Shown here: piece by piece, positions 12,600 to 41,391 of the stretch
Layout: every line of letters begins with the position of its first letter
Position numbering within the stretch: position 1 is the first letter of the stretch
NCBI GenBank assembly: GCA_903901045.1
Contig: CAIUPP010000029.1
Coordinates: forward strand, 1-64,000
Length of the DNA stretch: 64,000 nucleotides
Origin: an uncultured Planctomycetota bacterium
Lineage (GTDB): Bacteria; Planctomycetota; Brocadiia; CAIUPP01
Direction of reading: 5' to 3'
Notes under the pieces: model-generated
What the model was told of the DNA's origin: nothing
Databases searched by the model: none
The model's input: the letters and a program-made list of their open reading frames with translations, nothing else
Position numbers and translations under genes: made by a program

Positions 12600-12722
12600 G
12601 GCTTTTCTCCGAAAAGTGGAAACTCCATTGCAGGCCTCGCAACCTGCTTATTCAAAAACTCCCATTCTGCGCCGCATGATCCCACCCTCTTGCCGACAGG
12701 CCGCCGCAACGCGTCGCGGCAA

Positions 12723-13787: not shown

Positions 13788-13828
13788 ATCAGGCCTCCGG
13801 TCCTGGCACTGTCGCGCCAATCAGCGGG

Positions 13829-15010
13829 CTAAAGAGCCTTGCCCACCTGGCGGACCTTCACGAACTCCCCGGTTTCAATGGATTTCTTCGCGGCAAGGCA
13901 GGCATAGATGCTTTGGATTCCCATCCAGATGGTGGTGCGCGGCTTGCTCTTCTTCTTGATCACGCGGATGAAGTCCCGCGCCAGTTCGACGTCGCCGCCG
14001 AAATGGCTGAGGCCTTCGCCGGCGGCGACCGTGTCGGTGAACGGCTCATGATGGCGCACGCGGCGCAACTCATTCTTGTACCAGTCGAAACTGAGCGTGC
14101 CGTCATACCCGCTGATCGTGGCGCCGCGCGTGGCGGCGTCCCGCCGGGTGTAGAAGACCTGGGTGTAGACGCCGTGCGCGCCCGAGGCGAATTCCAGCAG
14201 GGCGCTGGAGGAGTCCTCATTCATCCCCGCCTCGGGGGTTCCGGCATCCTTCCCAAACACGCAGAAATGGTCCGCCGTCCGTCCGGACTGGTGGCGCTTG
14301 CGGTTTCGCGGACTTTCGGGGCAGTCGTCGGCCTCGCGGCAGGTGGAGCAGCGCGTCCCCGGCGACTTGTAATTCCCCCCGAAAATCTTCCCGACCGTGG
14401 CCACGGCCGCCACGCGGACGATCGGCGAGCCCATGAGATAATGAAGGTAGTCGAAGTCGTGCGTCGCTTTCTGAATGAACAACCCCTGCACGATCTGGTA
14501 ATCGCGGTACACCGTCTCCCAATAGACCGTTCCGTACGGAACATAGTTGACGGCCAGCACATGGTCCGGGCGGCCGACGGCGCCGGCGGCCATGTACTGA
14601 TGGGCCAGTTCGCACAGCGGCGAGATGCGCAAGGGAAAGCTGACGACGACGGGGCACCTGGATTTCTCGAATGCGCGCTCGAGGGCCAGCGCCTGCCGCA
14701 TGGAGACGGCCACGGGCTTTTCAAGAAACAGCGGAAGGTCGTACTTCGCCGCCTGCACGGCATAGGTGGCATGACGGTTGCAGCGCGTGCCGATGGCCAG
14801 GGCGTCGAGCTTGCCGCGGCGGACCATGTCCGGCAGGTTCCGGTAAAAGCGGACCCCCTCGCGGTCGCTCTCGGCCAGGCGCGCGCGCGCGCCGGCCTCG
14901 TCCGGGTCCACGACCCCCACCACGCGCAACGACGGCTCCTGCTCGCGGAAGCTGTCCCGGATGAGGTTGTTGATCCGGTTGCCGTATCCGACGACGCCAA
15001 GGCGTATCAT
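13829..15010 (-). CDS. Gfo/Idh/MocA family NAD(P)-dependent oxidoreductase
   Basis: 393 residues from ATG at 15010. The Rossmann N terminus is IRLGVVGYGNRINNLI, and the family EKP motif is present (FLEKPVA near residue 95), so the usual catalytic Lys is intact. A cysteine cluster RCSTCREADDC near 217-227 is an insertion that may bind a metal. The C-terminal alpha/beta half includes GYDGTLSFDWYKNEL. The frame extends far upstream but only as an antisense-like shadow of the amidohydrolase gene; the real start overlaps that gene's stop by 4 bp (ATGA), implying translational coupling. Family members oxidise or reduce sugars, inositols and amino sugars. The substrate here is unknown. Confidence 0.85.
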   Translation of the reverse strand: MIRLGVVGYGNRINNLIRDSFREQEPSLRVVGVVDPDEAGARARLAESDREGVRFYRNLPDMVRRGKLDALAIGTRCNRHATYAVQAAKYDLPLFLEKPVAVSMRQALALERAFEKSRCPVVVSFPLRISPLCELAHQYMAAGAVGRPDHVLAVNYVPYGTVYWETVYRDYQIVQGLFIQKATHDFDYLHYLMGSPIVRVAAVATVGKIFGGNYKSPGTRCSTCREADDCPESPRNRKRHQSGRTADHFCVFGKDAGTPEAGMNEDSSSALLEFASGAHGVYTQVFYTRRDAATRGATISGYDGTLSFDWYKNELRRVRHHEPFTDTVAAGEGLSHFGGDVELARDFIRVIKKKSKPRTTIWMGIQSIYACLAAKKSIETGEFVKVRQVGKAL

Positions 15011-15843
15011 GTGGCTCTCCCGGCGACAGGCGCCAGTTTCAGGATGCGGGCGGCGTTGCGGTACAGAATGTCGTCCAGGGCTTCCTGGCTGATTCGGTTT
15101 TCGCGACGCAAACCCATGAGATAGTCCAGGTGGTTCAGCGACAGGCTGTCCACGCCGTAAAGAAGTTTGCCGGAGAACCTGCGGATGAATTGGACCGCGT
15201 GCTCCGGGTCGCGCGTCAAAGCGCCAAGGCCGGAATTGGCGGAGAGGTCCGCGTACAGGTTCGGGTTCTCCTCCAGCATGCGGATGAGCTTGCCGCCGGG
15301 CGCCACCTTGCCCACGGGGTAGAGCTCCGTGCCGGGCTGCCCGGAGATGTGCCGCCAGAAACCGGGCGCGTGGCCGATGAACGCCACCGTCTTGAACTGC
15401 CGGCATATCTTGTCCACCGCGTCGATGTCCTCGTTGTACCACTTGGGCGCGCATTCGACGGATTCCATGTGGAACAGCACCGGCAAGCCGTGGTCGGCGC
15501 AGATTTTGTAGAGTGCCACGCTGTCCGGATCGTCGAACCGCATCCGGTGCTTGTGCTCCCCCATCCCCTTGAGGCCCCGCGCGATCCATTCCCTGAGGAC
15601 GCGCGGGGCATCAGGCCGAAGCGGGTCGGGAGAGTAGAAGGGGATGAACTTGTCCGGGTGCGCCTCGTACGCCTTCCAGGTGTTCTCGATGGAGATGTGC
15701 TGGTAGTCGGCCCGGAGGCCGCCCAGGAACTCCTCCCAGGTGTGGATGACGCACTGGGTGACCTGGGCGCGGTCCATGTAGTCGAGCAGGTCCTTGACCT
15801 TCCAGCCTTCCCACAGGACGTGTTGATGGAAGTCGATGATCAT
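15007..15843 (-). CDS. Amidohydrolase (amidohydrolase-2 / ACMSD-like) family protein
   Basis: 278 residues. The HxH metal motif is at the N terminus (IIDFHQHV, His6 and His8), a third His in FIGHAPGF near 157 and the conserved Asp in LLYGVDSLSL near 232, so a metal-bound active site is complete. This family hydrolyses or decarboxylates small cyclic or lactone substrates. It overlaps the transketolase subunit upstream by 4 bp and the Gfo/Idh gene downstream by 4 bp, so the three are made together. An oxidoreductase making a lactone followed by a lactone hydrolase would fit, but this is inference. Confidence 0.8.
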   Translation of the reverse strand: MIIDFHQHVLWEGWKVKDLLDYMDRAQVTQCVIHTWEEFLGGLRADYQHISIENTWKAYEAHPDKFIPFYSPDPLRPDAPRVLREWIARGLKGMGEHKHRMRFDDPDSVALYKICADHGLPVLFHMESVECAPKWYNEDIDAVDKICRQFKTVAFIGHAPGFWRHISGQPGTELYPVGKVAPGGKLIRMLEENPNLYADLSANSGLGALTRDPEHAVQFIRRFSGKLLYGVDSLSLNHLDYLMGLRRENRISQEALDDILYRNAARILKLAPVAGRAT

Positions 15844-16796
15844 GGTTTCTCCGCGGACCGGGTCCGCAACAATTGTCTTGCCTCCGCCGCGATGTCGGCG
15901 GCCCGGAGCGAGTACTTGTCCCGCAACTCATCGGGCGTGCCGCTTTCGGTGAAGCGGTCCGGGATTCCCACGCGCTTGATGCGGACGGGGAATTTCTCGC
16001 TGAGCAGTTCGCTGACGGCGCTGCCGAGTCCGTTGATGATGCTGTGCTCCTCCGCGACCAGCAGCGCGCCGGTCCGCCGCGCGAGAGAAAGAATGCTCTT
16101 CTCGTCCAGCGGCTTGATCGTGTGAATTTCCACGACCGTGACGCCGATGCCCTCCGCTTTCAGCGTCTCCGCCGCGGCAAGAACTTCGGGCACGATGAAG
16201 CCGGAGGCGACCAGCCCCAGGTCGTCGCCAAAGTCGGCGAGGGTGACCGCTTCGCCGATTCGAGGAGCGTAGGCGGCGTCGAAGACCACGGGGGAGGGAT
16301 CGCGTCCGAGGCGAATGTACACCGGCCCGCGGTGGTCGGCCGCCGCCCGGACCAGTTTGCGCGTGGCCACGGCGTCCGCGGGCGCGACGATCGCCAGGTT
16401 CGGGATGACGCGCAGAATGCCGATGTCCTCCACGGCCAGATGCGTGACCCCTTCAATGCCCGCGGAGAACCCCCCCAGGCCGCCCACGAGCTTGACGTCC
16501 AGGTTGGGGTAGGCGATGAAGGTGCGGATCTGCTCGCACGCCCGCATGCTCATGAAGGTGGCGTACGTCGTGGCGAAGACGGTCTTGCCGGTCGAGGCAA
16601 GGCCGGCGGCCATGGCCACCATGTTCTGCTCCGCAATCCCCACGTCCCAGGAGCGGTCCGGAAACTCGGCGGCGAGCAGGTCCGTGTACATGGACGTGGA
16701 GGTATCGGCCGCCAGCGCCACGATGTCGCGGCCCTCCCGCGCCAGCTCCAGCAGCGTTTCGCCATAGGCTTTGCGCGTGGATTCCAACGAAGGCAT
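15840..16796 (-). CDS. Transketolase, C-terminal subunit
   Basis: 318 residues covering the pyrimidine-binding and C-terminal domains of transketolase. Key motifs are the ThDP-activating Glu in WDVGIAEQNMVAMAAGLAS, FATTYATFM, and GGFSAGIEGVTH. With the next gene upstream it makes a split transketolase, as is common in many bacteria and archaea. Transketolase moves two-carbon ketol units between sugar phosphates. Sited in a catabolic operon, it may serve a special sugar rather than the housekeeping pathway. The gap to the N-terminal subunit is 15 bp and GGAAGG lies about 10 bp before the start. Confidence 0.92.
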   Translation of the reverse strand: MPSLESTRKAYGETLLELAREGRDIVALAADTSTSMYTDLLAAEFPDRSWDVGIAEQNMVAMAAGLASTGKTVFATTYATFMSMRACEQIRTFIAYPNLDVKLVGGLGGFSAGIEGVTHLAVEDIGILRVIPNLAIVAPADAVATRKLVRAAADHRGPVYIRLGRDPSPVVFDAAYAPRIGEAVTLADFGDDLGLVASGFIVPEVLAAAETLKAEGIGVTVVEIHTIKPLDEKSILSLARRTGALLVAEEHSIINGLGSAVSELLSEKFPVRIKRVGIPDRFTESGTPDELRDKYSLRAADIAAEARQLLRTRSAEKP

Positions 16797-16811
16797 CGGA
16801 GCATGACCTTC

Positions 16812-17669
16812 CTATGAGAGCAGTTGACGCCGGGCGGATTCAAGCTCCGCGTCCGTGGGGGCCTTCTGGTGCCAGGAGTTGTTGTTCTCCATGAAGGAGA
16901 CCCCCTTCCCTTTCACCGTCGTCGCCAGGATGACCGTGGGACGGCCCCGGTTCTTCTGCGCCTGAGCGAAAGCGCCGACGATCTGCGCGACGTCGTGGCC
17001 GTCTATCTCTTCCACGAACCAGTTGAAGGATTCCCATTTCCCGCGCAGCGGCTGGACGGACATCAGCTTGGACACCGGAACGGATTTGGAGCTCTGCCAG
17101 TCGTTGCAGTCCACCACCGCCACGAGATTGTCCAGGCCGAAGTTGGCGGCGGCCATCGCCGCTTCCCAGACCAGCCCCTCCTGCAATTCCCCGTCGCCCA
17201 GGAGGGCGTAAACGCGATAGGGCCTTTTGTCAATGTGCCTGCCTGCGAGCGCAATTCCCGCCGCCAGGGACAGGCCGTGTCCCAGCGAGCCGGCGGTCAT
17301 GTCAATGCCGGGAGTCTTGGTCATATCCGGGTGTCCCTGGAGCATGCTGTTGACGTGGCGCAGCGTCCAAAGCGCTTCTTCGCGGAAGAACCCCTTCATG
17401 GCCAGGGCGGCGTAGAGGATGGGGCAGGCATGGCCTTTGGAGAGGACGAAGCGGTCCCGGTCCGGCCAGTCCGGCCGGGCGGGGTCCATGCGCAGGGTCT
17501 CGAAGTAGAGGACGGCAATGATGTCGGCGATGGAGAGCGCGGGGCCGGGATGGCATTTGCGGTCTTCGCCAAGACGATGGGCGATCGTCACCGCGTGCAG
17601 GCGCAGCTTCGCCGCGATCAATTCGAGCTCAGCGATCCGCTTTTCAGTCGGGGGCATGGTCTCTCTCAC
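16812..17669 (-). CDS. Transketolase, N-terminal subunit
   Basis: 285 residues with the thiamine-diphosphate motif GDGELQEG near 157 ending in VVDCND, plus LSKGHACPILYAALA and GSLGHGLSLAAGIALA, as in the N-terminal half of transketolase. It is partner to the C-terminal subunit 15 bp downstream. The start is a GTG that overlaps the stop of the DUF5107 gene by 4 bp (GTGA); an ATG four codons later is an alternative. The chain of overlaps through 15007 indicates one transcript. Confidence 0.92.
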   Translation of the reverse strand: MRETMPPTEKRIAELELIAAKLRLHAVTIAHRLGEDRKCHPGPALSIADIIAVLYFETLRMDPARPDWPDRDRFVLSKGHACPILYAALAMKGFFREEALWTLRHVNSMLQGHPDMTKTPGIDMTAGSLGHGLSLAAGIALAGRHIDKRPYRVYALLGDGELQEGLVWEAAMAAANFGLDNLVAVVDCNDWQSSKSVPVSKLMSVQPLRGKWESFNWFVEEIDGHDVAQIVGAFAQAQKNRGRPTVILATTVKGKGVSFMENNNSWHQKAPTDAELESARRQLLS

Positions 17670-20600
17670 AACTCCATTTCCGTCTTCACTTCCGTCGCGG
17701 CCGAGGTCAGGCTGTGCCGCTCTTCCGGCTCGTGCCGCGCGCGGTAGACCATGTCGCGGAGGGTTCGCCGCGTCGCCACGGGAAGCTCCGGGTCCAGGCT
17801 GGCCGCATAGAGCCCCATCAAATACGTCTCCGACTCGGCGAGGCGGCCCAGTTTCTTGAGGCAGAGCGCCTGGTAGTATTTGGCGAACCAGGCCTGGCTG
17901 CGCGCGCTGCCCATGATCTCCGCAAAGAACGGGACGTTCACGGCCCGTAGCCAGGCATCGGCAGCCATGCCCGTCTGCCCGGTCTTCTCATAACAGCGGC
18001 CCAGGTCATAACCGACCTGCGCCTCGTGGAAGGAGCGCCAGGCCGCGCCCAGGTTGGGCGGCCCCAACAGCGGGCCGGCCAGCAGGGGAATGGCTTCTTC
18101 GTAGCGCCCCTCATTCATCAGATGCTCCGCCCGGGCAATCCGATTCTGCGTATAGAGGGCCTGGAACCTGCCGGCCACCTGTTCCATTTTTGCGTTCGCC
18201 ATGCAGGCGTCGGCGTCGTCAAACCGCCCGTGCGCGGTGAAGAAAGAAACCAGCGCCGTCAGCGCGGGAATATGGCGGCTGCATTCCCCGAGGTTGCTGC
18301 GCGTCCACTGGCTGACCTGGTCGGGCGTGGACTTGGCTACCATTTCGGATACGTGCCATTCGAAGGCATAGGGGTCCGCCGGGTCATCCCGGCGCGCGAC
18401 CTCCAGCCATTTCCGCGCCTCCTCCTTGCGCTCCAGACGCGTGAGCGACCTGTAGAGACAGCCCGCGCAGACGCACCGCATCGCGGTGGGGAGATGGTCA
18501 TGCGCCTGTTCCCACAACGGCAGCGCCTTTTCGAGCTGCCATCGGCCGGCAAAGTAGTTGCCGAGTTGATACCGGGCTATCGCGAGGTCGGCCCGGACGG
18601 ACAACGCCCATTCCAGGATGACCCGCTCCTCGTATCGCCACGCGAAGCCGGTCTTGTCGTTGCAGTCCGCCGCGCGCTTCAGCAGAGCCGCGGAATCCCC
18701 CCCGCGCCTGGCCTGCGCATAGGCCCGGGCCATCCAGTCCAGGGAAGTCGGCTCCTCGATCCACTGCAAGACCTGATCCGCCTCGGCCCAGCAGCCGAGG
18801 TTGATGTAGAAGAATGCGGCTTCGGAGAGGGCGTCTCCCCGCCCGGCGAAATGTTTGCGGATCTCCCCTTCGAGGTTCTTTTCCCCGCGGAAGAAACGCT
18901 CGCTGAGCAGGAGGGGATGGCAGACGTCGACCGCCGGGGCCGCGCAGTCCCCGCCGGCGCGCCCCGCGTGCCGCGCGGTGACAAGCTCAAGCGCGCGCAG
19001 CGTCGGCTGCTCGGTGTTGTAGGCGCGGGCCGCAGCGGCACACTCCCGGGCCTTCGGCCAGTCGCCGGAGTGCGCATGGATTCGCGTTAGCAGCGCCAGG
19101 CACTGCCAGCGATAGCCGAATCGCAGCGCAAAGTTCAGGACGCGTTCCGCCCGGCTGTCCTGGCCGAGCAGCGAAAGCGCCAGGCCCTTGTAGTAAAGCG
19201 CCTTGGGCTCATCCGGCACGGCGGCGAGGACCTTTTCAAGGAGTTGAAGCGATTCATCGAAGAGGCCCTTTTCCAGCTTGACCAGCGCGAGGCTGAGTTG
19301 CGCCGGATGGTGGGCCGGGTCCAGCTCAAGCGCTTCCTCGAAGGCCTCTCCGGCGGCCATGAATTCGTTCGCGCGCAGGAGAGTGTCCCCTTTGAGATAG
19401 AGGGCCTGGGCCGTGCGCGGCGGTTCGGCGGGCTCCTGGATATCGAACCAGATATCCTTGCACTTGGGCCGCTCCGCCGCCGAACGAAGGCGAATAACCT
19501 CCCGCCCCTGGCAGATGACGGCGGCGTCGATCTCCCGCTTCCGGCTTGCCGGAGCCTTGAGCGGCACGCGCAAGCTCACCGGCTGACCTGCTTTCAACCG
19601 GACGGCGGCGCTGCCCACGATCTCCTGCCCGCTGCGGAATTCGATCCGGCACTCCCCCAGCGAAACCGTGGGGTGCAGGGCCAGACTACTCACCAGCGCA
19701 TCCGGGGCGGACCCCGGACTGAATTCCATCCGGCCGGCCAGATCCGCGGTCGCGCCGGAAAACGCGCCGATCTCGCGGATGGGGTACCAGAAATGCGTCC
19801 AGGTGAAATGGTCGAAAGGCAGGAACCGGTCGAAATGCTCCTGGATGATGATGCGCCCGGACTGCATTTCGCCGTAGGTCCGGCCGTCGCGGTCGTGATG
19901 CGCGCTGTAGGTGCCGGGGCCGCCCCACTGCCCCCAGCCCCAACTCCAGTACTTCTTGCCGGGCGCGAGGTTCAAGTCCGCGAAATGGACGGCGCCGGCA
20001 TTCTGCGACGGACGCCAATAGCCGAAATACCCGTCCACCGTTTCGTCGAAGTAGACGCCCAGCGACTCCGGAACGTTCCTGAGCGTGTCGAGGTTCTGGC
20101 CGCCGTAGAAGGGCCAGGAGAAAGGCCGCGGGGGCACGCCGTGCGTGGCCGCGCGGGTTTCAGGAAATATCCAGACGGTCTCCGCATCCGTGAGCATTCC
20201 GGCGTTGGCCCAGTAATGATAGCGCGTCTCCCAGGGGTTGGGGTTCTCTATCGCGACGCGATGCTCCAGGCGCGCCTGGCCGGGCCGGAGAATGAATGAG
20301 AAGGCCCAGCGCGTGCGGAAATGCCTCTCGGTCTCGCTGAGGGTGACGCTGCACGAGCCATCCTCATGCCGGGCGGCGCGGGATTCGCGCAGCCGCATAT
20401 TGGTCACCGAGTGGGCGGCGGGATAATTCATCTCCATGCCGCCGCCCATATATCCGTACCCGAAGCCCGCATTGTACGGACGGCCTTCCTCGATGGGATA
20501 GAACACGTCGCGCTGGCCGTGCTTGTCGATCAGCCGCCAGACGCGGCCGCCGAGCGTCGGGCAGATCGCCACCTTGAGATGCTCATTCTCCATCCAGAGC

Positions 20601-20767
20601 AGGTCGAGCTCCCACTCCTCCAGCGTGCGATAGGCCGAGCCGTAGAACCTGTCCGGGTACGCGGGATAGCCGGTGAGCGCATTAAAAGGTGGGTGCGGAT
20701 TGAGCGGGAGCTGGCTTTGGAAAGGCACCCGCACGCGTTCCTGCCACGTCAGCACTTCCTGAGACAT
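17666..20767 (-). CDS. DUF5107 domain - TPR repeat protein
   Basis: 1033 residues. The N-terminal part, about 20-340, resembles the DUF5107 beta-sandwich, a galactose-mutarotase-like fold (KVAICPTLGGRVWRLIDK, EMNYPAAHS, WGWGQWGG). A linker leads to TPR-like helical repeats from about 455 to the end (LYLKGDTLLRANEFMAAGEAFEEALELDP, given here as two family hallmarks, and many similar 34-residue units). Such proteins are found beside sugar-catabolic genes in PVC bacteria and Bacteroidetes; their role is not established, although sugar binding or mutarotation is plausible. No signal peptide. It lies 55 bp after the GntR regulator and overlaps the transketolase start. Confidence 0.8.
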   Translation of the reverse strand: MSQEVLTWQERVRVPFQSQLPLNPHPPFNALTGYPAYPDRFYGSAYRTLEEWELDLLWMENEHLKVAICPTLGGRVWRLIDKHGQRDVFYPIEEGRPYNAGFGYGYMGGGMEMNYPAAHSVTNMRLRESRAARHEDGSCSVTLSETERHFRTRWAFSFILRPGQARLEHRVAIENPNPWETRYHYWANAGMLTDAETVWIFPETRAATHGVPPRPFSWPFYGGQNLDTLRNVPESLGVYFDETVDGYFGYWRPSQNAGAVHFADLNLAPGKKYWSWGWGQWGGPGTYSAHHDRDGRTYGEMQSGRIIIQEHFDRFLPFDHFTWTHFWYPIREIGAFSGATADLAGRMEFSPGSAPDALVSSLALHPTVSLGECRIEFRSGQEIVGSAAVRLKAGQPVSLRVPLKAPASRKREIDAAVICQGREVIRLRSAAERPKCKDIWFDIQEPAEPPRTAQALYLKGDTLLRANEFMAAGEAFEEALELDPAHHPAQLSLALVKLEKGLFDESLQLLEKVLAAVPDEPKALYYKGLALSLLGQDSRAERVLNFALRFGYRWQCLALLTRIHAHSGDWPKARECAAAARAYNTEQPTLRALELVTARHAGRAGGDCAAPAVDVCHPLLLSERFFRGEKNLEGEIRKHFAGRGDALSEAAFFYINLGCWAEADQVLQWIEEPTSLDWMARAYAQARRGGDSAALLKRAADCNDKTGFAWRYEERVILEWALSVRADLAIARYQLGNYFAGRWQLEKALPLWEQAHDHLPTAMRCVCAGCLYRSLTRLERKEEARKWLEVARRDDPADPYAFEWHVSEMVAKSTPDQVSQWTRSNLGECSRHIPALTALVSFFTAHGRFDDADACMANAKMEQVAGRFQALYTQNRIARAEHLMNEGRYEEAIPLLAGPLLGPPNLGAAWRSFHEAQVGYDLGRCYEKTGQTGMAADAWLRAVNVPFFAEIMGSARSQAWFAKYYQALCLKKLGRLAESETYLMGLYAASLDPELPVATRRTLRDMVYRARHEPEERHSLTSAATEVKTEMEL

Positions 20768-20822: not shown

Positions 20823-21899
20823 TCAGCCGCTGAATCCCTTGCGCAAGGAGCAGGCGAGCGTGACGCGGCGCGCGATGCTCCCGGGGTCGGCCGATCGTTG
20901 CAGCGCCAGCCACGCGGCGGTGCGGCCGAGCGCCTCCAGCGGCGCCGCGATGCTGGTCAACTGGTGCTCCGCCCCGTTGCGGCACGGTTGCCCGTCGAAC
21001 CCGACGACCCGGATATCCCGGCCGACCTGTATGCCACGACCGGCCAGCGCATGGCAGACGCCCGAAGCAAGTTCATCGCTCGCCGCGAAGACGGCATCCG
21101 GCAGTTTGCCGGCGTCCAGAATCTTCCCGGCCAACTGCGCGCCGACCATGCCCATGTACGTCTCCCCCAGGAAGACGGAACTCGGGAAGATCGCGTCGCC
21201 CCACGCGGCCTCGAACCCGTTGAAGCGCGCCTGGGTGATCGGGCACGTTCTCAATTCATTCCTGCGTTGAACTCCGACCAGCGCCACCTGCCTGCAACCC
21301 TGCTCCCGGAGAAAACGGGCCGCCAGAGCGCCCCCCTGCCGCGAGTCCGCGGTGACAATGTCGTAGCAGTCCCCCTCGGACCACACCAGTTCAAGGTCCT
21401 GCCCCAGGAGAACCACCGGCGCGTCCGTCGGTCGCACGACGGTGGCGAGGGAGGGACAGACCCAGATGAAGGCGTCGGCCTCCCCCCGGACGAATACCTC
21501 GCACGCCTCCTCCTGCGTTTTCGCGACCATGGACCAACTGCATTCCAAGGCATCCAACTGCGCCTGCAAAGCGGAGATCATGGGCCGCATGAACACGTCG
21601 TCCGCCGACTCCAGGCTGAGGACGACCTTGATCCGCCGCCTATGGGACTGGAGGACCGCTTCGTCGGGGAGCGGCCGAACGAAAGTGCCCGAGCCGGCCT
21701 GACGCACGACGTACCCTTCCTGGGCGAGCCGCTGCATCGCGCGCAGCGTGGCGCGGTAGCTGACGCCGAATTCCGTCCGAAGCTCCCGCGAACTCAGGAT
21801 TCGATCCCCCGGCTTCAGCTTCGCATCGCGAATCTGTTTCTTCAGCATCACGTACAGCGCGTTTCCGGTGGGTTCCTTCGCCTGTTTCAACTTCATCAT
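20823..21899 (-). CDS. GntR-HTH / LacI-sensor hybrid transcriptional regulator
   Basis: 358 residues. Residues about 14-80 are a GntR winged helix (ALYVMLKKQIRDAKLKPGD, SSRELRTEFGVSYRATLRAM, GSGTFVRP). Residues about 90-350 are a periplasmic-binding-protein-like sensor as in LacI/GalR proteins (DSRQGGALAARFLREQGCRQVALVG, DAVFAASDELASGV). It heads the minus-strand set and is divergent from the aldehyde dehydrogenase operon, with an inverted repeat between the two starts. It probably controls both. No strong Shine-Dalgarno precedes either of its two tandem ATG codons. Confidence 0.88.
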   Translation of the reverse strand: MMKLKQAKEPTGNALYVMLKKQIRDAKLKPGDRILSSRELRTEFGVSYRATLRAMQRLAQEGYVVRQAGSGTFVRPLPDEAVLQSHRRRIKVVLSLESADDVFMRPMISALQAQLDALECSWSMVAKTQEEACEVFVRGEADAFIWVCPSLATVVRPTDAPVVLLGQDLELVWSEGDCYDIVTADSRQGGALAARFLREQGCRQVALVGVQRRNELRTCPITQARFNGFEAAWGDAIFPSSVFLGETYMGMVGAQLAGKILDAGKLPDAVFAASDELASGVCHALAGRGIQVGRDIRVVGFDGQPCRNGAEHQLTSIAAPLEALGRTAAWLALQRSADPGSIARRVTLACSLRKGFSG

Positions 21900-21944: not shown

Positions 21945-21982
21945 TTGACACCTTATAGTCTCATATGGTATCTAGATGATAC
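21945..21982. promoter_or_regulatory. Divergent promoter region with candidate GntR operator
   Basis: TTGACA at 21945-21950 faces right towards the aldehyde dehydrogenase. A TATAAG -10-like hexamer on the minus strand (21957-21952) faces the regulator. Between and beyond lies GTATC-TAGAT-GATAC (21968-21982), with a nested perfect palindrome ATCTAGAT at 21970-21977, in the position of the rightward -10. The AT-rich, symmetric block is unlike its surroundings. Binding by the adjacent GntR protein is inference. The -10 for the rightward promoter is poor. Confidence 0.55.
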
Positions 21983-22144: not shown

Positions 22145-23647
22145 ATGAAACTCCGGAACAAATTGTTCATCGACGGCAAGTGGGTGGATGCGTCGGACGG
22201 AAAAACGCTGCCGGTCATCGACCCCTCGACCAACTCCGAAATCGCGCGCGTGTCCGCCGGAACGCCCGACGACGTCGCGAAAGCCGCCGAGGCCGCCCGG
22301 CGCTGTTTCGAGTCCGGAGCCTGGAGCGGCCTGACCATCCTGCAACGGAGTGAAATCCTGAACCGCGTGGGTCTCCTGATCCGCGAGCGGACCCGGGAGC
22401 TTGCCGAACTCGAAAGCCGCGACGTGGGCAAACCCTTGTGCGAAACGCTCAACTTCGACATCCCCGGCGGCGGACAGACCTTCAGTTACTTCGCCGGCTT
22501 AGCCGTCGACCTCTGCGGGCAGACGATCCCCGCGCCCGTGAACGAGGTGCTGAATTACACGGTGCGCGAGCCGATCGGTGTGGTCGGGATGATCATCCCC
22601 TGGAACTTTCCCTTCCTGGTCGCCTGCCGCAAAGTGGCCTCGGCGCTCGCGGCCGGCAACTGCGTGGTGATCAAGCCGGCCACCTGGGCTCCGCTGAGCA
22701 CCCTGGCGCTGGCGGACCTTCTTGCCGAAGCCGGCGTTCCGCCCGGCGCGGTCAACGTGGTGACCGGGACCGGCAGCGCCGTGGGCGCCGCCATGGTCCA
22801 GCATCCGATGATCCATGACATCAGTTTCACCGGGTCGACGGAGGTGGGGAAGACCGTGATGGGCGGCTGCGTCGGCCCCCTGAAGAGGTGCGGCCTGGAG
22901 CTGGGCGGCAAGAGCCCCGCCGTGGTGCTGCCGGATTGCGATATGGACGAAACGATCGGCGGCACGCTCTTCGGCGCCTACCTGGCGCAGGGGGAATGCT
23001 GCTGCGCGGCCACGCGGATGCTCGTCCACGAGGCGGTGTACGACGAGTTCGTCGAGCGGTTCGTCGCCGGCTCCAAGGCCATTCGAGTGGGCCTGCCGCT
23101 GGCGGAAGGGACTCAGCACGGCGCGCTGATTCACAAGGAGCATCTGGCGAGCGTCCTGCGGTTCGTGGAGGCGGGCAAGAAGTCCCGCGCGCGGCTCGCG
23201 TGCGGCGGCAGCGCGCTGACCCAGCCCCCCTTCGACCGCGGCAACTTCCTGCCCCCGACGGTGTTCGTCGACGTGGCCCCCGATTCCGTCATCAGCCGCG
23301 AGGAGATATTCGGCCCGGTTGTGATCGTCACGAAGGCCCGCGATGAGAAGGAACTGGTCCAACTGGCCAACGACTCCAATTACGGCCTGGCCGCAAGCCT
23401 ATGGACGACGAACCTCAAGGCCGGCCACCGCATCGCCGCGCAACTCAAGGCCGGAACGGTCTGGATGAACCTGCACAACTTCGTCTTCGCCACCGGTCCG
23501 TATGGCGGCTACAAGGAATCCGGCATCGGCCGGGAACTCGGCCGCGAGGGGCTGCTCTCCCTGACGCAGACCAAGAGCATCATGCTCAGCCTGTACGACC
23601 CGCCGTTCCAGTGGTACCGGGACGCGGCGAAAGAGGAGGCGCGCTGA
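22145..23647 (+). CDS. NAD(P)-dependent aldehyde dehydrogenase (betaine-aldehyde type)
   Basis: 500 residues from ATG at 22145. The full ALDH set is present: IPWNFPFLVACRK near 153, the general-base Glu252 in LELGGKSP, the catalytic Cys286 in GECCCAATR, EEIFGPVV and PYGGYKESGIGRE. It is closest in style to betaine-aldehyde and gamma-(aminobutyr)aldehyde dehydrogenases, but specificity cannot be read. The frame runs upstream to 21998 without sense; the chosen ATG begins the usual N terminus (LFIDGKWVDA). It is the first gene of an eight-gene plus-strand operon, and its stop overlaps the next start (TGATG). Confidence 0.92.
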   Translation: MKLRNKLFIDGKWVDASDGKTLPVIDPSTNSEIARVSAGTPDDVAKAAEAARRCFESGAWSGLTILQRSEILNRVGLLIRERTRELAELESRDVGKPLCETLNFDIPGGGQTFSYFAGLAVDLCGQTIPAPVNEVLNYTVREPIGVVGMIIPWNFPFLVACRKVASALAAGNCVVIKPATWAPLSTLALADLLAEAGVPPGAVNVVTGTGSAVGAAMVQHPMIHDISFTGSTEVGKTVMGGCVGPLKRCGLELGGKSPAVVLPDCDMDETIGGTLFGAYLAQGECCCAATRMLVHEAVYDEFVERFVAGSKAIRVGLPLAEGTQHGALIHKEHLASVLRFVEAGKKSRARLACGGSALTQPPFDRGNFLPPTVFVDVAPDSVISREEIFGPVVIVTKARDEKELVQLANDSNYGLAASLWTTNLKAGHRIAAQLKAGTVWMNLHNFVFATGPYGGYKESGIGRELGREGLLSLTQTKSIMLSLYDPPFQWYRDAAKEEAR

Positions 23648-24339
23648 TGCCGCCGCGCGTGACGTTCATCCACACGGTCAACGGGCTGGCGGAGCTGTTC
23701 AAGACGCTGAGCCGGGAGATCATCCCCCAGGCGAAGCTCTGCCACATTTCCGATGACAGCCTGATCCAGTCGGTGCTGGCGGCGGGCGGGCTGACCCCGG
23801 CGATCCACCGGAGAATCTGCGACCACGTCGTCGCGGCGGAAGCCGACGGCGCGAATGTGATTCAGGTCACCTGCTCCTCCGTTTCGCCCTGCGTGGACGT
23901 CGCCCGCCGGCTGGTATCTGTGCCGGTGCTGAAGATCGACGAGCCGCTGGCCGACCTGGCGGTGCGGCGTTTCAAGCGAATCGGCCTGATTGCGACCGCG
24001 CCGACCACGCTGCGTCCCAGCACGCAGATGGTGCGCGACAAGGCGCAGGCGCTCGGCTTGTCCGTCGAGGTGGAGTCCCTCCTCTGCGCGGGAGCCTATG
24101 AGGCGTTTCTGGGGGGCGACCTCGCGCGGCATGACCGCATCGTGCGCGAGCATCTCCACGCCCTCATGCAGAAAGTGGAAGTGGTCTTGCTGGCGCAGGT
24201 CTCCATGGCGCGGGTGGCGGAGGCGATGGAGGAGAAAGAGAAGATCGTGCCCGTCCTCTCCACGCCCCGCCCGGCGCTCGAATACCTGGCGGGCGTTCTG
24301 AAGGACTTGCCGCAGGGAAAGGATCCCGGCGCCAGGTAA
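23647..24339 (+). CDS. Aspartate/glutamate racemase family protein
   Basis: 230 residues starting at an ATG that shares one base with the ALDH stop. The two cysteines expected of the Asp/Glu/hydantoin racemase superfamily are at about 76 (QVTCSSVSP) and 147 (SLLCAGAYEAF). The fold markers GLIATAPTTLRPSTQMVRD and VLSTPRPALEYL agree. Members racemise amino acids or hydantoins or decarboxylate arylmalonates, so the reaction is uncertain. The start lies inside a longer open frame whose upstream part is out of frame with the ALDH and is not coding. Confidence 0.85.
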   Translation: MPPRVTFIHTVNGLAELFKTLSREIIPQAKLCHISDDSLIQSVLAAGGLTPAIHRRICDHVVAAEADGANVIQVTCSSVSPCVDVARRLVSVPVLKIDEPLADLAVRRFKRIGLIATAPTTLRPSTQMVRDKAQALGLSVEVESLLCAGAYEAFLGGDLARHDRIVREHLHALMQKVEVVLLAQVSMARVAEAMEEKEKIVPVLSTPRPALEYLAGVLKDLPQGKDPGAR

Positions 24340-24371
24340 CGTCCCTGTGAAATTGAGAAAGGAAAAGTGGC

Positions 24372-25085
24372 ATGAAGGAACTATCGCTTCTTGAAAGGCT
24401 GTTGAAGCTGCCGGCCGCGACGCGGGTAAGGACGCTGTACGAGGCGATCCCGTTCGCGGACCGCGAGAAGTACGCCTCCAAGATCATGGACCCGGCCATC
24501 AAGCCGTTGCGCAACGACATGGCGGTCTGCGGCCCGGCCTATACCGTGGCGGATTCCTTCATGAGCTTTGAGATGCTGGAGGACCGGCGGAAGGCAGGGC
24601 ACGTGATCGTGATCCAAACCTCCGGCTGCCCCGGGACCTTCGTCGGAGATTTCATGCGGGAACTGGCCTCCCGCGACGGAGCGCTGGGCATCGTGACCGA
24701 CGGCTACGTCACGCACGCCGCCTGTCTGGCCGGCAAGGAACTGCCGATCTTCGCCAAGGGGTCGCGGATTCCATTTGCCGGGTACAAGATGAAAGGCACG
24801 ATGCAAACAGCCATCTCGTGCGGAGGGGTGATCGTGAATCCCGGGGATTTCATCATCGGCAACCTCGACGGCGTCCTGGTGCTCACGCCGCAGGAAGCCG
24901 AGTCGCTTGTCGAGAAGGGGCAATGGTTCGCCAAAGTCGTCGGGGCGCTCATCGGCAAGTATATGGACAAGGGGATTCGCTACACGGAGGCGCCGGGCGT
25001 GCGCGAATACTGGGTGCACAAGAGCTCCGGCTCCAAGAACGAAGATGAGTTCTACCGGGAATGGTGCGAGAAATACGGCGAGTGA
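24372..25085 (+). CDS. RraA-like protein with altered active site
   Basis: 237 residues of the RraA / 4-hydroxy-4-methyl-2-oxoglutarate aldolase fold (PAIKPLRNDMAVCGPAYTV, VIVIQTSGCPGTFVGDFM, GVIVNPGDFIIGNLDGVLVL). In true aldolases the phosphate/metal site is DGxxRD; here the equivalent is TDGYVTH, so the Arg and the following Asp are replaced by Thr and His. The GDFIIGNLDG segment (usually GDxxxADxDG) is also changed. It may therefore not be an aldolase. AAAGGA stands 9 bp before the start. The gap to the racemase gene is 32 bp. Confidence 0.8.
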   Translation: MKELSLLERLLKLPAATRVRTLYEAIPFADREKYASKIMDPAIKPLRNDMAVCGPAYTVADSFMSFEMLEDRRKAGHVIVIQTSGCPGTFVGDFMRELASRDGALGIVTDGYVTHAACLAGKELPIFAKGSRIPFAGYKMKGTMQTAISCGGVIVNPGDFIIGNLDGVLVLTPQEAESLVEKGQWFAKVVGALIGKYMDKGIRYTEAPGVREYWVHKSSGSKNEDEFYREWCEKYGE

Positions 25086-25170
25086 CGGCGCGGGGGACAG
25101 CGCCGCCAGCGCCGGATCGTGCCGATGACTTCGCGTTCGCAGCGTTGCGCACAGGGAAGGACTTACCGCC

Positions 25171-26250
25171 GTGCTGAAATTCGAGACGAAAGGCCGTCCG
25201 TTGGAGCGGGGGCGGCAGCAGGGGGCCGTCTGCCGGGAACTCGCCGGCAAGTGGGTGAGCCTTGCGCTTGCGGATTTGGCCACCGCGTTCCGCGTGGCCT
25301 CTCCGGCGGAAGCAGTCCACTGCACGCGCGAGCAAGTGGCGTCGTGGACGGCCCGGCTGCAGCGGATCTGCCCGCAGGGAATTGAGGAATGCCGCGGCAT
25401 CGCCGCCGGCGCGAGGATCGCCGAGTCCGACTACTTTGCGGCGGTGTTCGGCTGGGCCCTGTCGCCGGAGGAACCGCGCCATTGCACCACGCTGGGCTTC
25501 CGCGACGAACGCGGCCGGCCGCTGATGGCGAAGACGGATGATGTCCGGCGCCAGGAGACCGGCTTCAACACGCTCGAAATCACCTGGCCGGAGAGCGGCT
25601 ACAGACACGTTCACGTCCACTTCGCGGGCACGATCTGGACGGTGGCCGGCATGAATGAGCGCGGGCTGGCGATGGCCATGACCGGCATTCCCGGGGTGAG
25701 AAGCGCGGAGGGCATCCCGTCGCTCGAAGCGCTGCACACCCTCCTGCCCGCGTGCGCCACCGTCGGGGAGGCCATCGAACTGATCCGCGATCTCTCAATC
25801 GGTTTCTATGGTTTCAGCCTCCTGCTCGGCGATCGGGAGGGCGGGTTGGCCCTGGTCGAGAAGACCGGCACGGGCACGGTGCTCCTTCCCGGCGAGCCGG
25901 GAGGGTTCCTGCTGCACACGAACCACATTCTCGACGCGGAGTCCGCCCGCAACAACCCGGCCCAGTCGGAGCCGATGCTGACGAACGGCGTCCGCCGCTT
26001 CGGCCGGGGACGGCAGCTCGCTCCCACCCTCCCGAGAACGGAGAAAGGGCTGGAGGCGTTTCTCGCCGACCACGACGCCCCCGGCGCCATCTGGCAGCAA
26101 GGGGAGGATGGCTTGCACACCGATTTCGGCGCGATCCTGCTCCCCATGGAAGGCCGCCTGCGCATCGAGCAGGGCCCGCCACAATGCCGCCAGAGAGAAG
26201 AGATTGACCTCGCAAAGGTATTCGCAAAGCCACACTCTGCCATAGGATGA
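25171..26250 (+). CDS. C45-family acyltransferase/amidase (penicillin acyltransferase-like)
   Basis: 359 residues from a GTG with AGGGAAGG upstream. The N-terminal part (KGRPLERGRQQGAVC) is typical of the acyl-CoA:6-aminopenicillanate acyltransferase (AAT, C45) family. In these N-terminal-nucleophile enzymes the chain is cut before a Cys; the candidate is Cys105 in RHCTTLGF. Downstream motifs GTIWTVAGMNERGLAMAMTG and LLHTNHIL match the family. It would break or make an amide bond. The gap to the RraA-like gene is 85 bp and to the MttB-like gene 4 bp. The substrate is unknown. Confidence 0.85.
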   Translation: MLKFETKGRPLERGRQQGAVCRELAGKWVSLALADLATAFRVASPAEAVHCTREQVASWTARLQRICPQGIEECRGIAAGARIAESDYFAAVFGWALSPEEPRHCTTLGFRDERGRPLMAKTDDVRRQETGFNTLEITWPESGYRHVHVHFAGTIWTVAGMNERGLAMAMTGIPGVRSAEGIPSLEALHTLLPACATVGEAIELIRDLSIGFYGFSLLLGDREGGLALVEKTGTGTVLLPGEPGGFLLHTNHILDAESARNNPAQSEPMLTNGVRRFGRGRQLAPTLPRTEKGLEAFLADHDAPGAIWQQGEDGLHTDFGAILLPMEGRLRIEQGPPQCRQREEIDLAKVFAKPHSAIG

Positions 26251-26254
26251 GACC

Positions 26255-27670
26255 ATGAATCTGACGCTGCCTGTCTTTCGCATCCTGGACGAAGCCACGC
26301 GCAACCGCGTTCAGCAGCAGGCGCTGGAGCTTCTGCGGATACAGGGGTTCCGCGTGCATTCCAAAGCCATCCGCCAGAGACTGGGAGCCGCAGGCGCGCG
26401 CGTGGACGAGGCCCGCGAAGTCGTGACGCTGCCGCCCGAACTGGTCGCCCAGGCTGTCGCCTCCTCCGCCAGAGAATTCACTCTGAAGGACCTCGATGAG
26501 CGCCCCGTGCGATTCGCCGCGGGAACCATCCTCGACACGGTCACCACCTACACCGAAGCGGTGAAATGGCTGGACTACGGGGCGACCACGTTCCGCGCGT
26601 CGCGGCTTGAAGATCTGCGGACGGGGCTGATCCTGGCGGATGCGCTTCCGCTGGTGGCGCAGACCGGCGTGGTGGTCTGGCCGGGCGACCTGCCGGTCGA
26701 GCAGCAGTTTCGGGCCGCACTGTGCGCCATCTTCACCACGACCCGGAAGGTCCTGGTCTTCGGTCTGCAAAATCTGGAGCATGCCCGCCTGGTCCTCGAT
26801 GCGCAGAGCGTGGCGGCTCCGGGGCGCGACCTCCAGCGGCAGCCCTATTGCCTGTTCGTAAGCTCCCCCACCAGTCCCTTCGTCCTTGACCTGGACTCGG
26901 GCGAGACGCTGATTTTCGGGCTGGAGCATGGCATGGTCCCCGTGCTCGCTCCATGCCCCATGGCCGGCGGAACATCGCAGTTCTCCCTCATCGGCACGGT
27001 CCTGCAGCAAGTGGCGGAGAATCTGTTCATGCTGACGGCGAAGCACGCCATCCGGCCGGAATCCCCCGCACTCTGGGGCGGCGCGGGCGCGGCGATGGAT
27101 ATGAAGGCCGGCGACGTATCCTACGGCGGGGTGGAGCGCAGCCTGATTATGCTGGCGAACATCGACATGGCCTGCCATTTTGGAATACCCTGCCACTCCC
27201 CCTCCGCCTCCGCGGACAGTTGTCTGCTCGACGCGCAGTTGGGCGCGGAGAAGACCTGGACTTACCTGACGCGGGCGCTCAGCCGCGCCGCCACCGGCAT
27301 GGGGATCGGCGCGGTCGGCAACGGCAAGGCGGTGTCCGCTGAAGCCATGGTGATCGACGCGGACATCCTTCGCTCCATCGCGCGCCTGCGCCAGGGAATC
27401 GAGGCAGACCATCTCGACAGGGCCGCGAAGGACATTCTGGAAGCGGGGCCTGGCGGCAATTTCATGATGAGCGAGGTAACACTTGACTTGCTGCGCGAGG
27501 GCCGGGAATACTACTATCCGGTGACGTTCAACCGGAAAGGGGCCGACGCGCCGCCGGCTCTTCAGCGCGCCCATGCGGAAGTCGAACGCATCCTTTCGGA
27601 ATGGCGCTGCCCGGTGCCTGAGCGCCGTTGCGCGGAACTGAAGAAGTTGCTGGGCGCGCCGGCCGAGTGA
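26255..27670 (+). CDS. Trimethylamine methyltransferase (MttB/MtgB) family protein
   Basis: 471 residues of the MttB fold. Motifs include the N-terminal LELLRIQGFRVHSKAIRQ, then PCPMAGGTSQFSLIG and EHG-rich segments in the middle, and the GPGGNFMMSEVTLDLLRE close. There is no in-frame amber codon, so it belongs to the non-pyrrolysine group, which includes glycine-betaine (MtgB), proline-betaine and carnitine demethylases that pass a methyl to a corrinoid protein. No corrinoid protein or RamA-type activator is nearby. It starts 4 bp after the C45 gene. Demethylation of a quaternary amine is the best guess. Confidence 0.82.
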   Translation: MNLTLPVFRILDEATRNRVQQQALELLRIQGFRVHSKAIRQRLGAAGARVDEAREVVTLPPELVAQAVASSAREFTLKDLDERPVRFAAGTILDTVTTYTEAVKWLDYGATTFRASRLEDLRTGLILADALPLVAQTGVVVWPGDLPVEQQFRAALCAIFTTTRKVLVFGLQNLEHARLVLDAQSVAAPGRDLQRQPYCLFVSSPTSPFVLDLDSGETLIFGLEHGMVPVLAPCPMAGGTSQFSLIGTVLQQVAENLFMLTAKHAIRPESPALWGGAGAAMDMKAGDVSYGGVERSLIMLANIDMACHFGIPCHSPSASADSCLLDAQLGAEKTWTYLTRALSRAATGMGIGAVGNGKAVSAEAMVIDADILRSIARLRQGIEADHLDRAAKDILEAGPGGNFMMSEVTLDLLREGREYYYPVTFNRKGADAPPALQRAHAEVERILSEWRCPVPERRCAELKKLLGAPAE

Positions 27671-27706
27671 TCTCCATCGCAAAAGGCAGGGAAGCGACCG
27701 CTTACT

Positions 27707-28441
27707 ATGGTGATTGACAGCTACACGACGCCGGGCACGGAGCGCGAGACTGCGCTGAGCGCCGGGGAACTCCTGAAGGCGATGGATCGCGCCGGGGTGG
27801 AGCGGGCCGTCATCGCCCCGCAAGACCGCGAGATCGCCGTGCGCCACGCGGAGGGCAATGACCGCATTCTGAAATTGGCCTCGGCGTCCGGCGGCAGGTT
27901 CATTCCCGCCTGCTCGGTCAGTCCCTGGCGCGGCGAGGAGGGATTGCGTCTGCTGCGCGAGGCCTCGCGCTGCGGCGCCAAAATGCTCGTGCTCGCGCCG
28001 ATGTTGCAGGGGTTCATCCCCACCGACGAAATCGCCGACCCGCTGTTGAAGCTCGCCGGGGAACTGCGAATGCCGGTCTACGTGCACACCGGCCCGCATT
28101 CGGCGGGAGGGCCGACGCAGGGGGTCCTGATGGCGGAGGCGCACCCCGGCACGAATTTCATTCTGGGCCATTGCGGCAGCACCGATCATGCCTGGGACAT
28201 GCCGGTGATTCTCCAGCGCAACCGGCTGCCCAACGTCTGGTATGAGGCGAGCCTCGTCCGGCCGTGGGCCGTGCCGGGCTATCTGAAGGCGGCGGGGTCG
28301 TCGCGCATTATTTTCGGGACCGCGATGCCGCGCAACGACATGGAATTCGAGTTGGCGCAACTCCGGCGGCTTCTCCCGGAGGAGGAGCACCCGGACGTGT
28401 ACGGCGGGAACCTGGCCCGGCTGCTTGGCGAAGGAGCGTAG
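27707..28441 (+). CDS. Amidohydrolase-fold protein lacking metal ligands
   Basis: 244 residues that align by eye with amidohydrolase-2 proteins, but the N-terminal HxH is missing: the protein opens VIDSYTT where active relatives have IDxHxH. The His of the third strand (PVYVHTGPH near 125) and of ILGHCGS near 151 remain. The closing GSD motif reads GTAMP, so the Asp is absent as well. It may be a non-catalytic partner of the intact paralogue at 28446-29213, five bases downstream. AAGGAG of that paralogue lies in its last codons, indicating coupling. Confidence 0.7.
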   Translation: MVIDSYTTPGTERETALSAGELLKAMDRAGVERAVIAPQDREIAVRHAEGNDRILKLASASGGRFIPACSVSPWRGEEGLRLLREASRCGAKMLVLAPMLQGFIPTDEIADPLLKLAGELRMPVYVHTGPHSAGGPTQGVLMAEAHPGTNFILGHCGSTDHAWDMPVILQRNRLPNVWYEASLVRPWAVPGYLKAAGSSRIIFGTAMPRNDMEFELAQLRRLLPEEEHPDVYGGNLARLLGEGA

Positions 28442-28445
28442 CCCA

Positions 28446-29213
28446 ATGATCGACTGCCACACTCACTGGGGCAGAGCCTGGACCGAGCGCGACGGCCTCG
28501 ATCCCCGGCGGTGGCTCGAACCGCTGACCGCGCACGGGGTTCAGCGCGCGATGGTGATGCCCGAAGAGGGTCTCCTGGATGCCGGACGGATAGGCCGGGA
28601 CAACGACCGGGTCGCCGCCGTGTGCGCCAGGTCCGATGGACGCATGATCCCCTGCTGCACGGTCAACCTGTGGATGCGCGAGGAGGCGGCCCGCGAGACG
28701 CGCCGCTGCCTGGGCGACCTGGGGATGCGCGGCATCAAGTTCCACCCCTGGCTCCAGGGGGGGAGCGTCAGCTCGCCGCTCATGGACGAGGTGTGCGAGT
28801 TGGCGGCGGAGTACGGCGTGCCCGTCCTCTTTCACGACGGCACGCCGCCGTTCTGCCTGCCGTCTCAGATGGCATTGCTTGCCCGGCGTCACCCCGGGGT
28901 TCAGATCGTGCTGGGGCACAGCGGGTTGTTCGAGCACTGGCGCGAGGCGATTGCCGCGCTCAAGGGGACGCCCAACCTCTGGGGTTGCCTCTGCGGCCCT
29001 CACGTGGCGGCGATGCGCGAGATCGTCCGCCAGTGCGACCTCTCGCGTCTTCTCTGGGGCACCGATCACGGCTACGGCCTGGCGGATGTCTACCAATACC
29101 GTTTTCCGCTGATGGACACTCTCCGCCTCAGCGACGCCGCGCGGCAGGCGATTTTCGACGACAACCCGGCGCGGCTCCTGCGGGGTCCGGCGTCGGCGAG
29201 CAAAATCCGATGA
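28446..29213 (+). CDS. Amidohydrolase (amidohydrolase-2) family protein, complete active site
   Basis: 255 residues from ATG at 28446. The metal ligands are complete: MIDCHTHWG (His5, His7), GIKFHPW, IVLGHSG and the closing GTDHGYG with Asp. AAGGAG lies 8 bp before the start within the end of the preceding gene. Together with the degenerate paralogue just upstream it may form a heteromer. It ends in a 4-bp ATGA overlap with the AAC(3)-like gene. Substrate unknown. Confidence 0.82.
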   Translation: MIDCHTHWGRAWTERDGLDPRRWLEPLTAHGVQRAMVMPEEGLLDAGRIGRDNDRVAAVCARSDGRMIPCCTVNLWMREEAARETRRCLGDLGMRGIKFHPWLQGGSVSSPLMDEVCELAAEYGVPVLFHDGTPPFCLPSQMALLARRHPGVQIVLGHSGLFEHWREAIAALKGTPNLWGCLCGPHVAAMREIVRQCDLSRLLWGTDHGYGLADVYQYRFPLMDTLRLSDAARQAIFDDNPARLLRGPASASKIR

Positions 29214-30025
29214 GCGCGCAGGAAGCATGGACGAAGAACCGGCTGGTTGCCGCATTCCGGGAAATCGGTCTGGTCTCCGGCGACGGCGTGATCGTGCACA
29301 GCGCGTGCAGCAGCCTCGGCGCAGTGGAGGGGGGCGCCGACGCGGTCATTGACGCGCTTCTGGAAGCCGTGGGGCCGAAGGGAAACCTGATGCTCCCCAC
29401 GTTCAATTACACCCGACCCCTGCCCGAGCCCTATTACGATCCGGCGGAGACTCCGGGACGCACCGGCATCCTCTCGGAGATCGGGCGCCAGCGGCCCGGC
29501 GCGCTGCGCAGCCTCCATCCCACTCACTCCGTCGCCGTCATCGGGCCGGAGGCGGAGCGCCTGACGCGCGACCACCTAGCCTGCCGCGCGTTCGGGATGG
29601 GCAGTCCGATCGACCGCATGGCCGCCATGGATGGAAAAGTCCTTCTGATCGGCGTGGGCCAGATCGCCAACAGCACCATACACATTGCCGAGGAGTATGC
29701 GGGAATTCCCAAGGTCTCGTGGTACGACCCGTTGCCGAAGGCCAAAGTGCGGCTGCCCGACGGCCGGGTTATCGAGCACACCCTGGACAGTTCATGCTCC
29801 TGCTCGGCGGCCTTCGGCGGGGCGGAAGGCGCGCTGCGCCGTTACGGAGAGATTCGCGACCTGCGCGCGGGAAATGGCAGTCTTCAACTCATGCGGGGCT
29901 CCGACGTGATCCGCCGCGTCCGCAGTCTGCTCACCGAAAAAGCGGACAGCCTGCTCTGCACCGCGCCGGGATGCAAGCCCTGCAGCGGGGCGCGCGCCCT
30001 GTTGCGCCAACGGGGGCGCCTGTGA
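29210..30025 (+). CDS. AAC(3)-family N-acetyltransferase
   Basis: 271 residues. Signature motifs of the antibiotic NAT family are present: VIVHSACSSLG near 29, SLHPTHSVAVIG near 100, and LLIGVGQIANSTIHIAEEY near 145, the last containing the His/Glu positions used in catalysis. The C-terminal part is rich in cysteine (SSCSCSAAFG and CTAPGCKPC), which is unusual and may bind a metal. In catabolic or biosynthetic clusters these enzymes acetylate amines other than aminoglycosides, so no resistance role is claimed. It is the last gene of the plus-strand operon and starts in an ATGA overlap. Confidence 0.85.
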   Translation: MSAQEAWTKNRLVAAFREIGLVSGDGVIVHSACSSLGAVEGGADAVIDALLEAVGPKGNLMLPTFNYTRPLPEPYYDPAETPGRTGILSEIGRQRPGALRSLHPTHSVAVIGPEAERLTRDHLACRAFGMGSPIDRMAAMDGKVLLIGVGQIANSTIHIAEEYAGIPKVSWYDPLPKAKVRLPDGRVIEHTLDSSCSCSAAFGGAEGALRRYGEIRDLRAGNGSLQLMRGSDVIRRVRSLLTEKADSLLCTAPGCKPCSGARALLRQRGRL

Positions 30026-39222: not shown

Positions 39223-39257
39223 AGTGCTGCAATCTCCAAGTCCATTGTGCGCGAAGG

Positions 39258-40685: not shown

Positions 40686-40689
40686 GGCT

Positions 40690-41379: not shown

Positions 41380-41391
41380 AATCGCTCCGGT

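Follow-up and report, generated by a model that had tools for sequence, protein, structure and literature searches.

A conserved pair of amidohydrolase-family genes, one degenerate and one intact, in an eight-gene operon of an uncultured planctomycete

The window analysed here is a stretch of 64,000 nucleotides (contig CAIUPP010000029.1, positions 1 to 64,000) from the 4.77 Mb draft genome of an uncultured member of the Planctomycetota, class Brocadiia. It carries an operon of eight genes on the plus strand (22145-30025), in which two neighbouring genes, named AH2a and AH2b, both encode Amidohydro_2 proteins. The two occur as a fixed pair in about a dozen phyla. A first-pass annotation made from the sequence alone had called the first amidohydrolase degenerate and the second intact, and the metal-site residues agree with this. 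We give about even odds to the view that the pair makes up a widespread heteromeric amidohydrolase not described before, in which AH2a has become an obligate non-catalytic subunit after repeated loss of its metal site, possibly lending active-site residues to AH2b, and which would form the core of degradation modules for amino- or N-acyl-sugars across these phyla.

Conservation and metal sites of the AH2a/AH2b pair

AH2b was searched for in 84,980 genomes. As short motifs were used the scan is not exhaustive; it found 66 loci. AH2a is present in 58 of the 64 loci carrying AH2b and absent from the cluster in the other 6. Both genes lie on the same strand in 56 loci, with AH2a nearly always immediately upstream, and in 22 loci they overlap by exactly 4 nucleotides. 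At L137-L139 the two genes are separated or, in L138 and L139, face each other on opposite strands. The loci come from Planctomycetota, Latescibacterota, Victivallaceae, Kiritimatiellae, Verrucomicrobia, Actinobacteria, Chloroflexi, Spirochaetales, Bacillota including Paenibacillus, Acidobacteria, Cyclobacteriaceae and an archaeon of the Bathyarchaeota. AH2a and AH2b show equal conservation, with mean identities of 0.38 and 0.36, respectively. Their protein distance matrices are correlated with r 0.79 (maximum of 2000 permutations 0.13), which reflects joint inheritance of linked genes as much as contact and therefore does not demonstrate a complex.

In the window AH2b all ligands of the Amidohydro_2 metal site are present (HTH, K, H, H and D, together HHKHHD), and the HxH/K/H/H/D set is kept in essentially all orthologue rows. 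In the window AH2a, DSYTTPG stands in place of the HxH motif and GTAMP has Ala where the late metal Asp is expected, leaving YTVHHA instead of a complete site. At least one metal-site residue is missing in 44 of the 55 complete rows of AH2a orthologues, and 11 are fully intact. The residues lost differ between clades, and the AH2a tree requires at least five changes between the intact and the degenerate state. In this tree the clade of the window AH2a is supported and also contains sequences of Phycisphaeraceae, Planctomycetaceae, other Planctomycetota, Latescibacterota and Victivallaceae, all of which show the YxVHH pattern and have no Asp. Across its orthologues AH2a retains invariant residues of its own, and its single-chain model is a confident TIM barrel (pLDDT 94).

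In fold, both proteins most resemble the uncharacterised structures 3cjp and 3irs, along with the ACMSD/decarboxylase branch. The nearest relatives of AH2b, by sequence as well as by fold, are ACMSD, LigW, LigJ, LigY and gamma-resorcylate decarboxylase. With the ACMSD/COG2159 branch (ACMSD, LigW, LigJ, gamma-resorcylate decarboxylase) AH2b shares the metal ligands. However, ACMSD is a dimer of one chain, whereas here two paralogous genes, one of them degenerate, are nearly always adjacent; both products are also shorter (244-255 amino acids), and no characterised member was found. ACMSD depends on Arg239 of the adjoining subunit (PMC11650718), and by analogy a catalytically dead AH2a could still serve the active site of AH2b.

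No amidohydrolase pair with a dead subunit was described in the literature searched. The closest parallel in print is offered by the inactive dihydroorotase chain of the Pseudomonas aeruginosa aspartate transcarbamoylase-pseudo-dihydroorotase, where a dead chain of the amidohydrolase superfamily is an essential subunit (PMC7053772). There the dead chain supports the transcarbamoylase, whereas the presumed partner of AH2a is its own intact paralogue. AH2a, which has lost catalytic residues several times and yet remains linked to its intact sister in many phyla, would be a clear and testable case of an enzyme that turned into a non-catalytic subunit.

Pairs of an intact and a degenerate gene are not confined to the AH2a/AH2b family. 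Other tandem Amidohydro_2 genes in Planctomycetota have an intact metal site in one copy but not in its neighbour (L040, L066, L071, L079, L080, L085-L088, L091-L095, L097 and L098).

The operon, its enzymes and the divergent arm

The eight genes form one real operon, and the layout given by the first-pass annotation, a tightly packed plus-strand operon of these families with overlaps at 23647 and 29210, was confirmed in every part (Table 1). All eight reading frames are open. The stop of the aldehyde dehydrogenase gene and the ATG of the racemase-like gene share one nucleotide at 23647, the start codon of the AAC(3)-type gene, at 29210, falls within the stop of AH2b (ATGA, a 4-nucleotide overlap), and the remaining gaps measure 4-85 nucleotides. 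In the Pfam domain scan all matches were well above the cut-off, with 544 bits for Aldedh, 57 for Asp_Glu_race, 87 for RraA-like, 53 for AAT/C45, 160 for MTTB (cut-off 25), 76 and 119 for Amidohydro_2 in AH2a and AH2b, respectively, and 165 for Antibiotic_NAT.

Table 1. Features of the operon, of the divergent arm and of the region between them (window positions).
Feature	Position	Strand	Basis
Aldehyde dehydrogenase	22145..23647	+	PF00171
Asp/Glu/hydantoin racemase superfamily protein	23647..24339	+	Pfam; residues read by eye
RraA-like aldolase-fold protein	24372..25085	+	Pfam; alignment to 3noj
C45 family Ntn acyltransferase/hydrolase, GTG start	25171..26250	+	Pfam, NCBIfam
MttB-superfamily methyltransferase, non-pyrrolysine type	26255..27670	+	Pfam
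AH2a, degenerate Amidohydro_2	27707..28441	+	Pfam, metal-site reading, structure model
AH2b, intact Amidohydro_2	28446..29213	+	Pfam, metal-site reading
AAC(3)-type CoA-dependent N-acyltransferase	29210..30025	+	PF02522
Candidate operator GTATC-TAGAT-GATAC, 15-nucleotide inverted repeat	21968..21982	.	By eye, divergent intergenic region
GntR-LacI hybrid regulator, between the two arms	20823..21899	-	Domain scan
DUF5107-TPR protein	17666..20767	-	Domain scan
Split transketolase	15840..17669 (N half 16812-17669, C half 15840-16796)	-	Domain scan
AH2c, third Amidohydro_2	15007..15843	-	Domain scan
Gfo/Idh/MocA oxidoreductase	13829..15589	-	Domain scan
Two URO-D family proteins, candidate corrinoid methyltransferases	11559..13820	-	Domain scan

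The best NCBIfam scores of the aldehyde dehydrogenase are those for betaine-aldehyde dehydrogenase and phenylacetaldehyde dehydrogenase, both under the cut-off. In the racemase-like protein, read by eye and without a structural alignment, the first Cys is present (VTCSS) and the position of the second is occupied by Gln (LAQVS), so that the two cysteines of Asp/Glu/hydantoin racemases are not both in place. The RraA-like protein belongs to its fold family, with the CHA aldolase 3noj as nearest solved relative. However, in the alignment to 3noj it has Thr-His (DGYVTHA) in place of the Arg-Asp pair of RraA/LigK-type aldolases. The C45 protein has the features of a C45 Ntn acyltransferase/hydrolase: it scores 141 bits against a cut-off of 85 in NCBIfam (C45_proenzyme) and conserves the nucleophile Cys in the alignment (HCTT).

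The MttB-type protein matches MTTB over its full length and has no in-frame stop, as in the non-pyrrolysine MttB superfamily (MtgB etc.). It differs from that group in being far from every solved member and in lying in an operon that holds neither a corrinoid protein gene nor a second methyltransferase. Its closest solved relatives, about equally far off, are methyltransferases for glycine betaine and trimethylamine, matched with about 100 bits over 450 residues. A pyrrolysine MttB was rejected: TIGR02369 gives 201.6 bits against a cut-off of 525, and the reported in-frame TAG is an artefact of the alignment, as it precedes the start codon. The same genome encodes about 12 divergent MttB paralogues, several of them near URO-D genes. 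B12-binding proteins are also present, with all PF02310 matches on other contigs. Since RACo and B12-binding proteins are encoded elsewhere in the genome, methyl transfer in trans may be possible. In the literature searched, at the level of titles and abstracts, no MttB or C45 genes were found in described planctomycete operons.

The only RACo match of the genome (PF14574) lies on the contig of the operon, 22 kb past the end of the window (C29:86146-86913). The window holds a second MttB gene (39258-40685), only very distantly related to that of the operon, within a minus-strand group (38077-42519) in which it is flanked by URO-D genes and which also includes a hexapeptide-repeat protein. Elsewhere in the genome, at C65:686-2131, an MttB paralogue match crosses one TGA stop.

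The divergent transketolase, lactonase-like and dehydrogenase genes of the first-pass annotation were found again, as a split transketolase, an Amidohydro_2 gene and a Gfo/Idh/MocA gene. This minus-strand arm probably belongs with the operon. A second locus of the same genome (L122, C120:20000-39000) carries a GntR-LacI regulator, MttB, a split transketolase, two URO-D proteins and an SDR gene, together with AH2c-like, Gfo/Idh, M55 peptidase and DegT genes. It repeats the set of regulator, MttB, split transketolase, URO-D, AH2c and Gfo/Idh, which backs treating the two arms of the window locus as one regulon, in keeping with the earlier suggestion that the divergent genes may finish the route. 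The candidate operator is weak, as it was found at a single site; a repeat search with a minimum arm of 8 did not report it.

Neighbours of the pair in other genomes

The order of all eight genes was not found elsewhere; what is conserved of it is AH2a-AH2b, AH2a-AH2b-AAC(3) and, in one genome, AH2a-AH2b with MttB. None of the 66 AH2b loci holds more than about four of the eight families. Searches with MttB gave distant matches only among 117 relatives (best outside match 33%) and no confirmed relative among the 84,980 genomes, and the C45 gene led to no second operon in 75 genomes of the class.

Linkage to the pair was compared with counts expected from the gene density in the same genomes, with loci treated as independent. 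Of 49 pair loci, 10 contain PF02522 genes, against an expectation of 0.27 (38-fold enriched); for C45 genes the count is 4 against 0.29 (about 14-fold). An AAC(3) gene directly follows AH2b in L132, L156 and L158, and the copy in L132 is 48% identical to that of the window. Genes for Gfo/Idh/MocA, creatininase, enolase superfamily, RidA, DegT and ROK proteins and for sugar ABC transporters also recur beside the pair. In L143, L152, L153 and L169 the pair stands with C45, a sugar-type ABC transporter and NagA-, NagB- or SIS-like genes. These loci resemble N-acetylglucosamine-type NagA/NagB clusters, whereas the window locus has no NagA, NagB or SIS gene. The neighbours elsewhere (Gfo/Idh, enolase, RidA, DegT, NagA/NagB-like and sugar ABC genes) argue for sugars or amino sugars rather than betaines, and the pair may serve as a marker for uncharacterised carbohydrate-type gene clusters of soil, sediment and gut bacteria.

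The nearest solved relative of the AAC(3)-type protein is AAC(3)-IVa, with which it shares a full-length match, HPxxS, TxxHxxE and part of a C-terminal Cys motif. The Antibiotic_NAT domain is clearly present. However, the NCBIfam scores are far under the curated cut-offs for AAC(3) enzymes (132.9 bits against 270 and 126.6 against 420), and the gene sits in metabolic operons of environmental bacteria. A role in antibiotic resistance was rejected on these scores and this context, which calls for caution in annotating such neighbours as resistance genes. The Cys motif consists of two or three Cys ending in CxxC plus a Cys in CSxxF. It is common to the window gene and its homologues beside the pair in L132, L138, L139, L147, L149, L154, L159 and L188, is partly present in AAC(3)-IVa and is a possible metal site.

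Proposed function and alternatives

That no textbook pathway has this gene set, as the first-pass annotation stated, is borne out. Our favoured reading, with a probability of roughly 0.45, is that the locus is a divergent regulon for the degradation of an amino- or N-acyl-sugar-like compound, in which AH2a and AH2b would be the two subunits of one hydrolase and MttB would have an accessory part. Complex formation, the substrate class, the order of the steps and the role of MttB are what we infer here. Both arms would be one catabolic regulon controlled by the GntR-LacI regulator, and the substrate would be a small compound of this class bearing at least one methyl group. The C45 enzyme would cut an amide. 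AH2a/AH2b would act as one metal hydrolase, either a lactonase, a C-C/C-N hydrolase or a decarboxylase of the ACMSD branch, with the metal site held by AH2b and AH2a as a non-catalytic or trans-contributing subunit. MttB would hand the methyl group to a corrinoid protein encoded elsewhere, the aldehyde dehydrogenase would oxidise an aldehyde intermediate, the AAC(3)-type enzyme would N-acylate an amino intermediate, and the transketolase, Gfo/Idh protein and AH2c of the divergent arm may channel the carbon skeleton to central metabolism. The N-methylated or N-acylated substrate proposed before is thus retained in its N-acyl/amino part, since C45 and AAC(3) genes recur with the pair in other phyla. 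Demethylation as the defining step is not retained, as the operon has no corrinoid protein and MttB accompanies the pair in just 1 of the 66 outside loci.

Several points weigh against this reading. The operon has no transporter gene. MttB stands with the pair in only one other genome (L168/L039, order AH2a-AH2b-MttB), which is of the same class. As the racemase-like and RraA-like proteins are without their usual catalytic residues, the part of both in the pathway is uncertain. The loci behind the linkage P values come partly from related genera, yet are counted as independent, and DegT beside the pair in some relatives could mean biosynthesis. Correlated AH2a/AH2b distances are explained by co-inheritance as well as by contact, and the fully intact AH2a in 11 of the 55 rows means that both proteins may be active in those lineages.

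These last two points also bear on whether there is a complex at all. AH2a could be a separate binding or regulatory protein, or a metal-free catalyst, linked to AH2b through a shared pathway, which alone would give linkage, co-inheritance and equal conservation and would suit the intact AH2a proteins and the opposite strands in L138 and L139. We consider this unlikely, because the 4-nucleotide overlaps in 22 loci fit translational coupling, which is usual for subunits, and degeneration hits AH2a but hardly ever AH2b. A metal-free lactonase of the LigI kind still requires the late Asp, which is Ala in the window AH2a; a D248A mutant structure, 4di9, is among the structural matches.

Two other substrates have to be weighed against an amino- or N-acyl-sugar. 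In a betaine-type pathway MttB would demethylate a quaternary amine or N-methyl amino acid freed by C45 or an amidohydrolase, and the aldehyde dehydrogenase and AAC(3) would process the products. This has in its favour the solved structures nearest to MttB, the top score of the aldehyde dehydrogenase, against betaine-aldehyde dehydrogenase (although under the cut-off), and the RACo and B12-binding proteins of the genome. It is nevertheless improbable, as the characterised MttB proteins are so distant and the genome holds about 12 divergent paralogues, the operon has no betaine transporter or corrinoid gene, and the pair, AAC(3) and C45 genes recur without MttB. Still less credible is aromatic ring cleavage of the protocatechuate/gallate 4,5 type, with Amidohydro_2 proteins of the LigJ/LigI/LigW kind, RraA as a LigK-like aldolase and MttB/URO-D proteins stripping methoxy groups. 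The nearest relatives of AH2b and of the RraA-like protein would suit such a route, but the scanned genes of the locus include no ring-cleaving oxygenase, the RraA-like protein has no aldolase Arg-Asp, and in other genomes the pair is accompanied by genes for sugars and amino sugars.

Beyond the operon, the window gene at 30104-32575 has a 70% identical GH116 counterpart in another genome (L128, G001:C66). There it lies between a ceramidase-like gene and the gene of an 873-amino-acid protein that fuses GH20-like and C45 (AAT) domains.

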